A stretch of DNA of 64,000 nt. Origin: Astrocystis sublimbata (lineage: Eukaryota; Ascomycota; Sordariomycetes; Xylariales; Xylariaceae). The position numbers were made by a program, and so were the translations under genes. The stretch is taken from assembly GCA_022453515.1 (NCBI GenBank), contig JAJNNY010000003.1:868001-932000 (forward strand), given 5' to 3'. Of the stretch, positions 7,333 to 49,725 are shown one piece after another. Position 1 is the first letter of the stretch. The number at the start of each line of letters is the position of its first letter. The notes below the pieces were generated by a model. It was not told the origin of the DNA, did not search any database, and was given only the letters and a program-made list of their open reading frames with translations.

Positions 7333-8969
7333 CTAACGCGATATATCGTCTGCATTGACGCCCGCTGCACCACTGTTGTCTACCCCTGACCAACCCGAAT
7401 CCCACCCTTTCTGCTCATCTGCAGCACGAGGGGCCTCGCCACTCTCCGCCATTCCCTTGATATCGCTCCACTGTAACCGCTGGAGTCAGTAATTGCCTTT
7501 TACAGTGAAAGAATCGCTCATGAAATGGGGATTGGCAGATGTCTCGGGAGCATAGATACCTGTTATGGTGATTTATGCCTCCGAGACTTGCCAGAAGGGG
7601 GAATAAACGACTAGGGAGTGCATACAAACTCTAACCTGCGGACTTCTTCGTCGGCGTGGACGATCGCCTTGGCTAGGTTTTCAGCCTTGGCCGTCATGGC
7701 AGATTTCCCTTTGCTGGCGCTGCTTGTCGCGTCATCATGCAGCCGTGTGAGACGGGCTAACAGTGTTTTCCGAGACGCCTGAAAGACAAACATGGACATA
7801 ATCTCGTGCATATGGTCCTGTAAGTGCAACAAGTCATCCGTGCAGTTGTCTATGTAATTTCCGACGGCTTCGAGCTTCTCTCTGTCAATCCGCGCCTGTT
7901 TGAGCATAACCAACAAGTCTTGGGTAGTCCTGGCCTCCTGTGAAGTTGACGTAGTTTCCACGTCTCCCCTTGATCTATCTCGTGACCGTGACCCTCGCGA
8001 GTCACCCTGAGATCTCCTGCCCGCCGTGTCCACGCTGAGCCTGGTCACCTCGCTCACAGTCACAACGGGACTCGGGTCTCGTTCCTTGGCTGCTGACACT
8101 GTGAAGTAGGCCGGATTCATGGAAGACTCGTCCATGGCCGAATACCCACTGCCGACTTTTATCCGCCTCCTGATCCATGCTCTCCTGCGGACATACGAGC
8201 TGTACCAGTTCGGCGAGTGCCATGAGAACTTCTTCGAAAACATGAATGAGTATTCCCAGCCATCACTATCGGCTTGTATCTGCTCGTCATGATTTATGCG
8301 CCATTCAGGCCAAGCCCATTGCCAGCTGGGGTCAGGGACTTGGGCGGTGTGTATATCCGTCGGGCTCGGCTTATGGGCAAAATTGGTCCAAGCCGTGGGA
8401 TCGAGGTTCCCCAATGCTGCGGAAGAGAAAAGGGGTATGCCGCATAGGAATCCCCCACGCTGATTCTCGTACAAGATGTCGATTTCGGTTTCGGGTTCTC
8501 TGGGGCGCTCCGGGCGAGCGTCAGACCCACGGCTTCCTATGACAGGTCGACTGGAGCGCCGCCGCTTGGCGCGATCATCTACATCTATGTCAGAGGCTCC
8601 TGCTGGAGCTGGAGAGGGACCATTGTCCCCATCTCCATCAGCATCGCCGTTTGGATCGTAGATTCGCGAGGTTTGAGAGGGGCCAGGCTCGGGCTCTCTG
8701 TCGTCGAGGTCTCCGTCCTCGTCCGTGTTCTGGGTCAGCGGGGCTTGGGACTCGGGGCGCTCGAGGGACTGGTCTAGAGTTGAATGATCTGTTATACGGC
8801 TCGACTGGATGGAATCGTGAGAGTGCCTTGTCTGAGGCGCCTCGGGCCGGGTTCGGGGCTTGTCGATGGCATCGTCGTGGTCGACGAGGGCTATCTCATG
8901 GTCGATATCCTTATCGGCGAGCGGGAGCACACGACGTGAAGTACGCACACGGCGTTTATGATGGGACAT
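7333..8969 (-). CDS. Dysferlin-domain protein, Mug65/Spo73-like
   Basis: Two exons, 8969-7626 and 7470-7333, joined in phase 0 across a 155-base intron (7625-7471); 493 residues. I chose the ATG at 8969; an in-frame ATG at 8987 would add six residues. Residues 1-160 are acidic, Ser/Pro-rich and probably disordered, with a basic KRRR at about 135. Residues about 160-272 match the dysferlin/peroxin (DysF) domain: an ILYENQRGG opening, a Trp-rich middle (WQWAWPEW) and a closing GWEYSFMFSKKFSWH followed by RRRAWIRRR. The short second exon encodes the conserved WSDIKGMAESGEA tail. In fission yeast Mug65 is meiotically up-regulated, and budding yeast Spo73 acts in prospore membrane extension; a membrane-associated role here is inferred. 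The intron is an introner-like element (separate entry). Confidence 0.85.
7471..7625 (-). mobile_element. Introner-like element, copy 1 (intron of the Mug65-like gene)
   Basis: The 155-base intron runs from GTATGC to TTACAG on the minus strand. It is clearly homologous to the two 156-base introns at 45915-46070 and 46164-46319. A 30-base block at 7583-7612 is identical to 45930-45959, and the branch-site region (GGCAATTACTGACT, then CAGCGGTT) matches as well. A central inverted repeat lies at 7574-7592 and 7534-7554, with a perfect 7-base arm (GTCTCGG/CCGAGAC) and a 5-base arm (GCATA/TATGC). Its ends coincide exactly with the splice sites. I infer a mobile intron family from its presence in unrelated genes. 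Confidence 0.85.
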
Positions 8970-11888: not shown

Positions 11889-14170
<2,282 letters not shown>

Positions 14171-45101: not shown

Positions 45102-46810
45102 ATGACGAAGCCAGAGGACCTCCCCCCTATGACATACCGCTTCCTGGGCCGCTCTGGTCTTCAGGTCTCGGCTATCTCGATTGGAGGATGGTTGACATAC
45201 GGCGGGTACACGGAATCGGGTAAGCTCTCCCTTTGGCAGCATTCGTTGCGTGCCATGTGGTATGGAGGGGTGCTTCCGATTTAGGAGTAGGAGCTTGGGT
45301 AGATCAAAGGTTTTGTTCCAAAAGAGATGAAGCCACGAGAACGAGAACGAGCATGTTGTGAGATGGCAGAATTCTAGCAGGAAAAAGTTAACCTTTGAAT
45401 CACAACAGAAAAGGCACATGAGTGCATGAAGGCCGCGTACGACAGCGGCATCAACTTCTTCGACTGCGCTGAGGTTTACGCTGGTAAGCAACTTTCGTCT
45501 GCGAGCCATCATTTTATATACCCAGTTGTATAGGAACGCGAAAGTAGAAACAATTGCTGACACTTTGGCTTCCGTCGAAACAGGCGGCAAGTCCGAAGAG
45601 GTCATGGGTGCGGCCATCAAGAAATACGGCTGGAAGCGCAACGACCTCGTCATTTCGACCAAGGTATGCCCCCCAATTCTTTATTCAATGTCTGAGGAAG
45701 AAACATGTTGGGCTGACTGCTCCGTTCTAGCTCTACTGGGGCGTCGCCTTCGGCGACAACCCCGTGAACAACAAGGGTCTTTCGCGCAAGCATATCATCG
45801 AGGGAATGGAGGGGTCGCTCCAGCGCCTGGGGCTTGACTACGTAGACGTCATCTACGCCCACCGCCCCGACCGGCAGACACCCATGGAAGAGACGGTCCG
45901 AGCCTTCAACCACCGTGTGTACCCCCCGGAGTCGTTTATTCCCCCTTCTGGCAAGTCTCCGGGGTACAGATTACCCTAACGGGTATCTGTACTCTCGCGA
46001 CACCTGCAACCCCCCGTTTTGCGACTAAATCTTTCGCTATGAAGGCAATTACTGACTACAGCGGTTGTAGTGATCAACACAGGCAAGGCCCTGTACTGGG
46101 GCACCTCGATGTGGAACGCCGACGAGATCGCGCAGGCCTGGCGGTACGCAGACCGCTTGGGACGTATGTACTCCCCGGATTTTTTTATTCCCTCTTCCGA
46201 CAAGTCTCGGATGCATAAATTACCTTGACCGGTATCTATGCTCCCGAGACACCTGCAAACCCCCGTTCCTGGCCAATTCTTTGAATGTAAAAGGTGATTA
46301 CTAACCCCAGGGGTTGTAGTGATCGGCCCCATCGTGGAGCAGCCCGAGTACAACATGCTTTGCCGTGAGAAGGTCGAGTCCGAGTTTGCGCACCTGTATC
46401 GCGAAGTTGGCACGGGCCTGACCGTGTTCTCGCCCCTTCGCCAGGGCTTGCTCTCGGGCAAGTACAAGGACGGCATCCCGGAGGGCTCGCGGCTCGCACA
46501 GAACCAGGTCGAATTCATCGCCGGTTGGTTGAAGCGCACCGGCAAGGAGAAGTTCGACGAGATCATCAAGCACATCAACCAACTCGGGCCCATCGCCGAA
46601 AGTCTGGGTATCAAGCAGAGCACCCTCGCGCTCGCCTGGGTCCTCAAGAACCCCAATGTCTCCTCTGCCATCATCGGCGCTAGCTCTCCTGAGCAAGTCT
46701 ACGAAAATGTGCGTGCCGTCGAGGCCGTTGATAGGCTGACGCCCGAGATCATGGACAAGATTGATGAGATCCTGAACAACAAGCCGCCTGCTATCCTTGC
46801 GCGTTTTTAA
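45102..46810 (+). CDS. Aldo/keto reductase, potassium-channel beta-subunit-like (AKR6 type)
   Basis: Six exons, 45102-45219, 45409-45483, 45584-45663, 45731-45914, 46071-46163 and 46320-46810; 346 residues with consistent phases. The enzyme should reduce aldehydes or ketones with NADPH in a TIM-barrel fold. The catalytic tetrad is complete: Asp58 and Tyr63 in [11 protein letters not shown], Lys91 in VISTKLYWG, His135 in [31 protein letters not shown] (161-167) and the C-terminal [21 protein letters not shown] (cofactor-binding) are typical of the Kv-beta/AKR6 branch, found in fungi as soluble enzymes. Introns 4 and 5 are two related copies of an introner-like element, both 156 bases and both in phase 1. 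Intron 4's donor (C|GTGTGT) forces a Leu at residue 153, where I would have expected Val. Confidence 0.93.
45915..46070 (+). mobile_element. Introner-like element, copy 2 (aldo/keto reductase intron 4)
   Basis: This 156-base intron (GTGTGT to TTGTAG) aligns almost without gaps to intron 5 of the same gene, with about three quarters of positions identical by eye. It shares a 30-base identical block (45930-45959) with the Mug65-like intron. Its central arms, GTACAGAT at 45964-45971 and ATCTGTAC at 45985-45992, pair perfectly. In the other copies the same arms read GCATA/TATGC, so two base pairs have changed on both sides. Confidence 0.88.
46164..46319 (+). mobile_element. Introner-like element, copy 3 (aldo/keto reductase intron 5)
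   Basis: A 156-base intron (GTATGT to TTGTAG), same length, phase and downstream exon start (TGATC) as copy 2. Its inverted repeat has GTCTCGG at 46204-46210 pairing with CCGAGAC at 46244-46250, and GCATA at 46213-46217 pairing with TATGC at 46237-46241. The branch site is TTACTAAC near 46299-46306. Confidence 0.88.
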
Positions 46811-49087
46811 GAGAACAACGCCGCACTTTGACTGCTTGTTGAGGTTGGACAGAGGATGAATACATAAGTAGCTACTCGCAGTATTATGCGAAAAATAGAC
46901 GCTTCGGACGACATGTATGATATATCCCGTAACAACTTTCTAACTTGCTCTTGCGTGCTGGTGCATTGTGATATTATTAAGACCCTGCACCTAGACTATC
47001 CGAATCCGAATCCGACACCGCAACTTCACTCTTAGTTTGCTTGCCTATTAATAATGTTTACTTTATATTCGTTGTAACGGAACAGGTAATATGCTGAACT
47101 ACCAAAGGTCTAGCTATAGGCCTGCAGCTCGGTACCACTACACTATCAAGAGGTAAAACGTTATCAACACGGAGATTTGGTCGTCTGCAGCCACTTGTAT
47201 ACAGAACCGTGACAATTGTGTCGTGTGTTTCGAGTATGAGAGCTCAAGGTTCTAAACTCACTATGATTCGGAGCGTTGTCACTTGTTAGATCATATGCAA
47301 CAAGATGTCCTCGACGACTTCTCGTGGTAGTTAAGAGTATTGCTCTAATGAACATGACGTATCATTCATGTGAGAGGAAGTAAAAAGGAAAGTGGCCCGG
47401 AGTGGCACAAACAATATCGGTACGATGAATAAGCAGCGTCCGCCTCTTCATGTAACGTTTGGATCAAGGGCAGAGGCAGATGCAGGCCGACAAATAGTCG
47501 CCCCATGCGGCCGCTGCCGTATGATTCCTAGCCACCTCACGAGCTCGCAAGGCCGAGGAGGCACTTTTTCACCAGACTCCTAACCGCTGATGTTCGAACC
47601 ACCCACCACCGAGAACCCACATTCCACCCTGCGTCCAGCCATTACATCTGTCTGGTACAATAGATTTTGGTTCCGATGACAATGTGAGATGTTTGGTGGA
47701 TTCCGTGATGCGGAGAGAGGCATCGAGTGCTCCAATCATCTAATACGTTACATGTCAACATGCATAGAATTGAACAGATGTTATTCCATATTATTGTAGT
47801 AGCGAACCATAGAGCTCGAGGAACAGTAATCATTGGTACACCTGTTCTGGAGGCGACCAGTCGAGAGTTAACTTTTCACATGTAGATTCAGCGCCTCCTG
47901 TGGAGTACGTGACAGTTGATGTAATGACTAAATCCCATTGCGCTGATGCTTGTTCGAGGCAACCATATATTGGACACGCATAATATAGTTATTAGTATGG
48001 TCATAAAAACATATGGGAGTGCTCGTTGTCTTGGTTGAGAGAGAAGTACTGTCCGGGTCAAGGGATAACTTTTCACTACGGATGAAGCATTTTCCGGATC
48101 AAGGGATAACTTTTCACTGACGGATGAAGCATTTTGCAGGTTGCTGCTGCCTAAACTACACTTAACCCCTCTCATTGCCGATGCGTCAATGTTCGTGAGA
48201 CCTATAGCTATTGTATTATCATTCTTGGACGATACAGTATGGACTCACCGACCAGTCTATTTGACAGGGGCTCGAGAGCTAATCACGCCAACACCCATTG
48301 AAGGTTTGCGGCGCTGATATGCAGAACATTGCCAACGTATACTCGACCTTCCGTAATCGACCCCGGTATCATATGAAATGGAAGGTTGACTTTAAGGCAT
48401 CCATGGCATGCCCCAGGTGTTGCTTTATGCCATATTGGTTCCCGGGGGATTACTAAGTACTCAAGTTTGTTGGCAGCCCGGCCTTCCTTTTTCATTCATA
48501 GTTCGACGCCAATCTCGGCAAACGTCCCCGATAATGGTTGCGTTGCCGTTAATTGCCCATAGGGCAGAATGTTCGGTCGAGAGAAGTTTGAACAGTATTG
48601 GGTTTCTACTTATTTACTACTGTATTCTCTGCATGTTATCCAGGGCGCGTCTTGGCGGTTTAACAACCGCAGTCATTTAGGCCGACTTGATTGTGAAGTC
48701 AAGAGTCGCAGTTTTGGTTCTATGTTAAAGCCTTAAAAAAGAGGGTCAGTAATTCCTCGTATTGAAACTTCTTTCTGAGTACCAGATGTTGAGGCGCGTT
48801 ATTGGTCAACGTTGAATGTAGGTTGTAATCACCCGAGTATGCGGCGGCACAGAATGATGCTGTGCCTCTCACCAACAGCTGTGCCTAGTCAACATACCGC
48901 AACCATCGGCAATGGCTTTGAAGATGACTGTATGAGTCGCTTCAGTCGAACTTCGGATGCTTTTTAGTCATGGCCACAATTCACGTAGCTAAGATAAATA
49001 ACCCTCGCTGGTCCTTCATTCTTCCACCTGCTTCATCACCATCTTCACTCTCATCACTTCTCTCATCCGTCCTCGCAAGCTTTCACG
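46811..49087. other. Intergenic, no gene supported
   Basis: AT-rich non-coding sequence with one short tandem duplication (48053-48135). GATAAATA at 48993-49000, about 90 bases before the ATG of the secreted protein gene, could serve as a TATA element. No coding frame is convincing. Confidence 0.45.
48053..48135. repeat. Tandem duplication of a 41-42 base unit
   Basis: The segment 48053-48093 is repeated directly as 48094-48135 with two differences (GGGTCAAGG/GGATCAAGG and one inserted G). The core CAAGGGATAACTTTTCACT is identical in both. It lies in non-coding sequence. Confidence 0.9.
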
Positions 49088-49725
49088 ATGCTGTTCGCCA
49101 ACCTCCTTGTCCCCGCCGCCTTCGCCGTGGTAGCGCAGGCCATCAACCCGATCAACCATTACCCTGGCCCGGACGAGTTTCTGAAAGTCGGAGATGTGTT
49201 CGTCTATGAATTCGAGCCCGACCTCACGCGCGGAGATGACACTTTCGAGGCCATCATTTCCTGCAACCTCGTGGACCCGATTGTGGTCCACGAAGGCTCC
49301 GGCAGCATTTTCGATCCCCCAGTGCTGTATGTAATTATCAATTGGGCACCCCCTTTGAGCAAATTTTCAGAGGCACGACTCTATCGGGCATCTATGCTCT
49401 TGAGAGCTCTGAAAGTTTGTTCATCGTGAACGCCTGCTTTACTCTACTCTACTCTAAACTGCAGTTACTAACGTCAGGTGCTGAAGTGACTACAAGGGAG
49501 ATTCTGAAACAATTGATCGTATGTGGCCTTCCAATCCGTACCTCGTGTCTTGTACTAATCGCTTTGGAAATCCATCTAGCCGCTGTCAAGTACTCGAGCG
49601 GCAACGTGACCTGGAACGTCCAGCCCATCGATGGCCGAGTGGGCGCGGAGTGGTATTACAGGTTCGCCTTCTCACTCTCGCGAGAAGCCACCGAATTCCA
49701 TCCCGTCTTCCATATCGAGAATTAA
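49088..49725 (+). CDS. Small secreted protein, possibly with a Kre9/Knh1-like Ig fold
   Basis: Three exons, 49088-49326, 49487-49518 and 49580-49725; 138 residues. Residues 1-18 form a clear signal peptide (MLFANLLVPAAFAVVAQA). The mature part starts INPINHYPGPDEFLKVGDVF and has a single cysteine (Cys59). It contains KYSSGNVTWNV (94-104) and WYYRFAFSLS (115-124), the pattern of the N-terminal domain of fungal Kre9/Knh1-like cell-wall proteins, though without their usual Ser/Thr-rich, GPI-anchored tail. The assignment is therefore tentative. The acceptor before exon 2 is AAG; choosing the earlier CAG gives a stop two codons later. Intron 1 aligns with the introner-like family, and the AAG falls exactly where those elements end, which supports the model. 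Confidence 0.72.
49327..49486 (+). mobile_element. Introner-like element, copy 4 (divergent; intron 1 of the secreted protein gene)
   Basis: A 160-base intron (GTATGT to CTGAAG). It shares GCATCTATGCTC with the other copies at the equivalent offset, and the branch-to-acceptor stretch TTACTAAC..CAGG..TG.AG with copy 3. Arms at 49364-49375 and 49395-49406 still pair, with one mismatch when G-U pairs are allowed. It is more diverged than copies 1-3, so it is probably an older insertion. Confidence 0.68.

Follow-up and report, generated by a model that had tools for sequence, protein, structure and literature searches.

The origin of new spliceosomal introns is an old open question, and among introners it is the fungal ones to which DNA transposition applies least well. 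Introner-like elements of the Capnodiales were reportedly treated by Torriani in 2011 and by van der Burgt in 2012. Passages of PMC4457414 (Collemare 2015) describe these elements as canonical fungal introns that multiplied massively and seamlessly, degenerate quickly, and occur twice in some genes; passages of PMC8469720 add predicted structure or inverted repeats and a preference for AG/GY sites. The family reported here, compared with them by description and not by sequence, shares these properties apart from the site preference, which fits only one of its lineages (group B), and it belongs to another fungal class.

The closest described systems are the symmetrical sister stwintrons and cropped sister introns of the Hypoxylaceae and Xylariaceae (Fekete and co-workers; PMC8469720, PMC12403724), i.e., of the same fungal order. 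As described in passages of these two papers, they and the present family have in common inverted repeats near both intron ends, seamless sense insertion with no target-site duplication, loss of symmetry in older copies, and more than one copy in some genes. In contrast, the present family consists of canonical introns and not of [D1,2] stwintrons: the −1 exon base is G in 34/113 copies (16/18 in group B), and an AGT-type center was found by a simple word test in 2/107. Judged against the same passages, its repeat sequence is unrelated to NTIRE-10, its 3′ arm coincides in part with the branch-site word and does not lie downstream of it, and it counts at least 145 copies versus tens per species. 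Moreover, its lineage-specific exon bias is strong, whereas section 3.6 of PMC8469720 and the discussion of PMC12403724 state that the elements described there have none.

Introners with marks of DNA transposons, as presented in passages of PMC9860276, carry inverted repeats, as does the present family. The same passages describe Acanthoeca introners with terminal inverted repeats (TIRs) but no target-site duplications (TSDs) and call ascomycete introner families TIR-less and TSD-less. Unlike these ascomycete families, the elements studied here have plain near-terminal inverted repeats; no TSD was detected, and the element carries both splice sites.

Here, we describe a new introner-like family from the genome of Astrocystis sublimbata, whose architecture is close to that of the symmetrical introns of Xylariales. 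Its copies lie in sense orientation, have lineage-specific exon flanks, and show no detectable variable target-site duplication. Within one genome, it offers many copies, fresh to decayed, beside a smaller family of known type. No description of it was found in the titles and abstract openings listed by the literature searches; it may be present without a name in supplementary tables such as PMC9860276's lists of introners.

Related introns in the reductase gene and elsewhere in the window

The window, i.e., the whole 64-kb stretch analyzed (C113:868001-932000, within a searched genome of 42,594,959 bases on 189 contigs), contains an aldo/keto reductase gene (Kv-beta-like) on the plus strand at 45102..46810. 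Its six exons give a spliced translation of 346 amino acids, with start and stop positions taken by reading the sequence. The PDB sequence 6ebk_A (Kv-beta subunits) matched with an E value of 1.1e-97 and aligned without gaps across the junctions of both the fourth and the fifth intron (i4 and i5). The best 11 database matches were 81 to 86% identical and carried the names Xylaria, Poronia, Nemania, Rosellinia, or Xylariaceae. By eye, spacing around both junctions was unchanged in 12 relatives of the 120 listed (GL[IV]GP in 12/12, HLI in 10/12). The remaining introns are located at 45220-45408, 45484-45583, and 45664-45730, also on the plus strand. Aldo/keto reductase paralogues in the genome were considered as empty sites and discarded as too distant (26 to 41% identical).

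Both i4 (45915..46070) and i5 (46164..46319) lie on the plus strand, are 156 bases long, belong to group A (see below), and interrupt the frame in phase 1, at C|TG in each case. i4 begins with GTGTGTAC and ends with CGGTTGTAG between exon flanks CACC|TGATC; i5 is flanked by GGAC|TGATC. From the core coordinates, the near-terminal inverted repeat of i4 has its 5′ arm at 45926..45934 (CCGGAGTCG) and its 3′ arm at 46053..46061 (TGACTACAG), the latter overlapping the branch-site-like word CTGAC. An inner hairpin is predicted in i4 at 45954..45995 from the group A consensus fold and a weak reverse-strand match of the family profile (E values of 1.4 and 0.44), and in i5 at 46203..46250 (GTCTCGGATGCATAAAT..ATCTATGCTCCCGAGAC; reverse-strand match, E value of 0.001). 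As the first-pass annotation had claimed, the two introns share their length and phase and about three quarters of their bases (116/155 aligned positions; 110/156 ungapped), and the exons around them are unrelated: the 40-base flanks matched at 14/40 and 19/40 positions, the second value including the common TGATC as the sole exception. Nor did the pair arise by local duplication. Among the 113 parsed copies described below, the nearest relative of both was L027, located elsewhere in the genome (0.793 for i4 and 0.814 for i5), and neither intron is within the six nearest of the other.

The same annotation had named two related introns in other genes of the window, and both were recovered with a leave-out profile built from 110 genome copies, none of them from the 64-kb window. 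The minus-strand copy at 7471..7625 (155 bases, in a predicted gene, exon flanks GTTT|TGGAG) scored highest of the four (E value of 1.9e-45), followed by i5 (2.1e-37) and i4 (3.5e-37), and for all three the profile envelope ended at the splice sites. Its inner hairpin, at 7541..7588 on the minus strand, gave a reverse-strand match with an E value of 0.018, and 7472-7587 one of 4.3e-6. The fourth copy, at 49327..49486 on the plus strand (160 bases, exon flanks TGCT|TGAC), is clearly more divergent, matching only profile positions 27 to 155 of 156 (E value of 1.6e-8). Its flanks score sense, and its host gene, with an ATG read at 49088, is a prediction from sequence only. Aside from reverse-strand matches inside copies, no fifth copy was found in the window with this profile, the next match having an E value of 0.07; in the reversed window, the best E value was 6.3. 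Four copies per 64 kb would extrapolate to far more genome-wide than were found, in a window selected because of those copies.

Two minor features of the window were observed alongside. The match with an E value of 0.07, at 13475-13508 on the minus strand, resembles the 3′ end of the family and is possibly a decayed copy. At about 48055-48135, two near-identical adjoining stretches with TCAAGGGATAACTTTTCACT and ACGGATGAAGCATTTT were seen by eye in an apparently intergenic position.

Copies across the genome: number, orientation, architecture, and age

DNA and pattern searches of the genome retrieved at least 145 distinct copies. This is a lower bound: copies were found through conserved motifs, so that those that are decayed, truncated, or not introns may be represented too sparsely. 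Used as a DNA query, i4 yielded 96 candidates at first look and the minus-strand copy 151, 40 of which were scored each time and all matched; the divergent copy at 49327 matched itself only. Five extra rows in one such search were reverse-strand matches within copies. Three sequence patterns gave 181, 129, and 143 matches versus 4, 2, and 8 for the reversed patterns, far beyond the four copies from which an introner-like family had originally been proposed. Capture-recapture between patterns yielded 243, 261, and 172 copies, values that are low because conserved copies match several patterns and rough because the sample was mostly gathered with the same patterns; 172 to 261 is thus read as a lower bound. 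The earlier expectation of hundreds of copies genome-wide holds as an estimate of this kind, not as a full count.

From 162 hits, 16 were excluded as copies (those under 41 bits and the partial L139 and L161), and 146 rows were tabulated, one of which (L133) proved to be the reverse reading of another copy. Thirty-three rows, including L133, failed boundary parsing or mismatch limits and were left out of the flank statistics, which rest on 113 parsed copies; L133 apart, they were kept in the orientation count. Two or three copies occur together at loci L001, L030, L038, L045, L051, L088, L089, L091, L122, and L144. At L030 (contig C126, about 1011-1320), two copies stand head to tail with no intervening exon, the second sitting precisely on the 3′ splice junction of its neighbor, and a third lies nearby. 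On the short contig C11, L078 and L079 (39064 and 53499) are apparently the same copy present twice in opposite orientation; an inverted duplication may thus make up part of C11, and L079 was removed as a duplicate.

To assess intron status, 42 long open frames served to train a codon model (self-check, 874/1000), after a hexamer coding model had proved too weak for the training size (44/110 classified copies sense and in frame). With the flanks joined, the sense strand scored best in 94/112 copies and the frame expected from the splice ends in 84/112; at random places, that frame was best in 831/3000 and the sense strand in 1501/3000. Where two candidate AGs differed in frame, the second fitted better in 36/42 copies, a comparison that is blind in most of group A, whose two AGs are 9 bases apart. 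The first AG after the branch-site word therefore seems not to be used. A Pfam domain crossed the junction in 9/10 proteins selected from 47 translations. By frame and homology, the predicted ends of the copies were shown to be splice-exact.

Orientation was determined for all copies by a windowed strand test, with extra flank for 12. The claim that copies always lie in the sense direction stood for 142/145: 139 by codon score, 9 of these calls resting on fewer than three informative windows, and 2 by Pfam in spite of a negative score (L024, a transporter, and L053, NOG1). The remaining one, the second copy of L122 (score of −5.3), was counted as sense by reading its translation as an Na+/H+ antiporter. 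The exceptions are L028, L127, and L163, which score against the gene; in L028, the donor GT is missing and every frame is interrupted by nearby stops.

The 113 parsed copies are GT-AG introns with a median length of 157 nt (quartiles, 156 and 158). Donors were mostly GTATGT (42 copies), GTATGC (33), and GTCAGT (17), and acceptors were CAG (43), TAG (39), and AAG (31). Intron ends alone define groups A (49 copies), C (26), B (18), and D (14), with 6 others; L023 and L058 look misassigned to group D, which affects all group D values, and the donor of L007 was parsed four bases upstream of the likely one, which affects only its 5′ flank. The family core spans CTGGAGTCATTTA to ACTGACTCCAG, and its ends are the near-terminal inverted repeat CTGGAGTCA/TGACTCCAG, predicted to pair as RNA. 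In group A an outer arm is added, so that the repeat extends to TGCAACT..GGTTGCA and the predicted stem of the consensus has just GUA beyond it on one side and G on the opposite side; the complete 16-pair stem is found in 14/49 copies of this group. Between the arms, the inner hairpin reads GTCTCGG.GGCATAAAT..ATCTATGCTCCCGAGAC. The elements are near-palindromic, the profile giving reverse-strand matches inside the same stretches. Predicted folding was more stable than that of dinucleotide shuffles (median z of −3.0 for the 113 copies; A, −4.4; B, −2.4; C, −1.8; D, −2.9), and RNAalifold on the full alignment returned no structure. L071, which ends near base 381 of its locus, is a derivative of ∼59 nt that kept both near-terminal arms and the 3′ end and lost the middle, resembling in this deletion the cropped introns of Hypoxylaceae.

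Mean pairwise identity among the 113 copies was 0.73, and median identity to the nearest neighbor was 0.86. The family includes very recent copies: the introns of L004 and L005 are 100% identical, and their hosts encode a 6-phosphogluconate dehydrogenase and an acetyltransferase, respectively (Pfam). BLAST of the two 3.1-kb loci against each other found a single common stretch of 163 bases, plus its palindromic self-match. Among the pairs listed, the 25 of highest similarity had introns that were 94 to 100% identical and exon flanks that agreed at 2 to 12 of 25 bases, values equal or close to the chance expectation. Overall, copies sit in unrelated Pfam families, and such likeness in unrelated genes suggests gain, as against loss.

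Single-side departures from paired positions were A-C in 249 cases and G-U in 231 (132 and 130 in group A), counts that lean towards group A because its consensus fold defined the pairs; since A-C is as frequent as G-U, nothing indicates that selection maintained RNA pairing once the copies had inserted. An exception was the outer stem arm, with G-U in 153 and A-C in 35 cells (113 copies). Selection for pairing is possible there, in a segment that overlaps the donor and acceptor words, has a T-G pair in the consensus, and hence gives no clean pairing test. Stem completeness was highest in group A copies with close relatives (Spearman coefficient of 0.47, P = 0.0007, n = 49). Simple ageing would produce such a trend, as would a requirement for the stem during propagation, and age alone could account for it.

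Exon flank bases and routes of propagation

No junction-adjacent run of matching positions, as expected of a variable target-site duplication, was detected in the 113 copies, by a test that a fixed-dinucleotide duplication would escape. Excess matches occurred at spliced distances of 9, 12, 15, 18, and 21, the strongest diagonal being 12 (summed z of 3.5). These multiples of three are attributed to codon periodicity; a weak 12-base exonic repeat is conceivable in view of the diagonal at 12.

The exon bases next to the introns differed strongly between the groups. In group A, +1 was T in 47/49 copies (P = 4e-30), and +2 was G in 35/49 and A in 3/49. Group B had A at −2 in 15/18 and G at −1 in 16/18, and group C only A (12 copies) or T (14) at +1. 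Group D, with its two apparently misassigned members, had T at +2 in 13/14 and G at +1 in 11/14. A tree for which only the intron core was used, with ends and exons left out, predicted the bases at +1, +2, −1, and −2, with 0/200 shuffles as good at each position; the bases at +3, +4, −3, +10, and −10 were not predicted by it. The preference thus looks like a property of the lineage. Such a preference of each lineage for its own one to three exon bases is a mechanistic clue predicted neither by plain reverse splicing nor by random break repair, and it fits neither of the two simple models of propagation considered below, an RNA route and a DNA element.

Phases in 90 confident copies (39 in phase 1, 31 in phase 0, 20 in phase 2) roughly track the codon positions of the preferred words, and the 23/40 group A copies in phase 1 exceed what |TG alone would give. 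Several sources of the bias can be considered. AG| beside the group B donor GTCAG may reflect selection on the strength of the splice site, which would hardly account for the T that follows CAG or TAG acceptors in group A. As a cause of the bias, pairing of exon bases with intron bases 2 to 4 is only speculation, because the excess of G over A at +2 in group A opposes simple pairing. A rather doubtful proposal is that the intron end sequence itself would determine next to which one to three exon bases each lineage inserts (|TG in A, |GTG in D, |AYG in part of C, AG|G in B). A copy in the form of RNA or single-stranded DNA would perhaps pair with the target through its hairpin end. Spliceosomal introns guided in this manner would recall group II introns or IS200/IS605 elements. 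The passages of PMC12403724, PMC8469720, PMC9860276, and PMC4457414 that were consulted hold no description of it for introners.

Taken together, it is very probable that a multi-lineage introner-like family multiplied in this Xylariaceae genome by sense insertion into exons without loss or gain of coding letters, its members being canonical GT-AG introns of ∼157 nt that carry an inner hairpin in addition to the near-terminal inverted repeat. RNA-mediated re-insertion is the most likely route, not a proved one. The copies would probably have propagated through an RNA copy of the intron that was put back into transcribed coding sequence, as we infer from a unit that ends at splice sites and from copies that, as far as seen, lie sense in genes. 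The RNA could have re-entered by reverse splicing, or excised intron RNA could have been used in break repair; the near-terminal stem would have been needed at this step, holding the ends together or protecting the RNA, and not for later splicing. Two observations count against this route: plain spliceosomal reverse splicing does not predict lineage-specific exon bases, and inverted repeats are also expected of a DNA element.

The repeats could be the ends of a MITE-like non-autonomous DNA transposon, moved by a transposase from elsewhere, of which only spliceable sense copies in exons survive. They are clear near both intron ends and were both retained in the internally deleted L071, the lineage-specific bases resemble a target preference, and most introner families elsewhere look DNA-borne in passages of PMC9860276. 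However, the ends of the element coincide with splice sites, a target-site duplication of variable sequence was not detected in 113 copies (a fixed dinucleotide being invisible to the test), and a DNA element should leave intergenic copies too, while 142/145 copies were sense. We consider a transposon origin possible but improbable.

Templated break repair or template switching could also copy the intron together with a few exon bases, the flank bases then being microhomology between donor and target. That the +1 and +2 bases follow the core phylogeny would agree with this, as would TGATC after 6/35 group A copies beginning with TG (P = 8e-6) and the common downstream bases in two of three near-identical pairs (4 to 5 of the first 5 in L004/L005 and L076/L097, only the first in L018/L005). 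Relatedness and flank likeness were correlated at P < 0.05 in parts of all groups: weakly for +1 to +3 in group A (r = 0.18, P = 0.046), for the 5′ flank in B (r = 0.32, P = 0.028), for the 3′ run in C (r = 0.09, P = 0.023), and for +1 to +3 in D (r = 0.71, P = 0.003), the last with two seemingly misassigned members. In group A, the largest, the bases from +2 to +6 did not track relatedness (r = −0.006), and none of the flank positions tested (+2 to +6, −1 to −3) had tree signal, so that the preference looks fixed by lineage and not passed from parent to daughter. Some handing down of flank bases is possible; as the general route, break repair seems quite unlikely. That ordinary introns became alike through segmental or tandem duplication of gene pieces is scarcely conceivable, and such an origin was refuted for the pairs tested. 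In its favor, ten loci hold two or three copies. Against it stand the exon flanks, which agreed hardly more than by chance in the 25 pairs just mentioned as the most similar ones listed, the unrelated Pfam families that harbor copies, and the finding that neither i4 nor i5 is the nearest relative of the other.

A single candidate for an autonomous partner, L150 (C9:18600-22760), was picked on contig C9, where inverted pairs of a word resembling the 5′ arm occur. It is a perfect inverted repeat with two 1817-base arms, an AT-rich center, and reading frames of up to 238 amino acids. Apart from one 21-base word, itself with three mismatches, it did not match the family profile.

A second, NTIRE-like family in the same genome

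A word put together from two published features of Xylariales stwintrons, their donor and their near-terminal repeat, gave 36 matches in the genome versus 11 for the control. From these emerged a second family of about 114 nt, GTATGTATCAAAAC.. ..GACTGACATGTTTTGATA, with 19 pattern matches versus 0 in the control. Its 10-base near-terminal inverted repeat, which in the best copies reads GTATCAAAAC / GTTTTGATAC or close to it, resembles NTIRE-10 of Xylariales stwintrons. Fifteen of the 19 places were retrieved and three were already in hand; of those retrieved, L185 and L189 failed to parse as members, and 17 copies were parsed (L002:2600, L015:831, L026 on the minus strand, L111:8, L165:190, L177 to L184, L186 to L188, and L190). 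G occupied −1 in 11/17 copies, and +1 was C in 7 and T in 7, i.e., the 3′-side bias was much weaker than in group A. This NTIRE-like family is separate from the main family and smaller, and a known kind of intron and a new family thus occur side by side in one genome.
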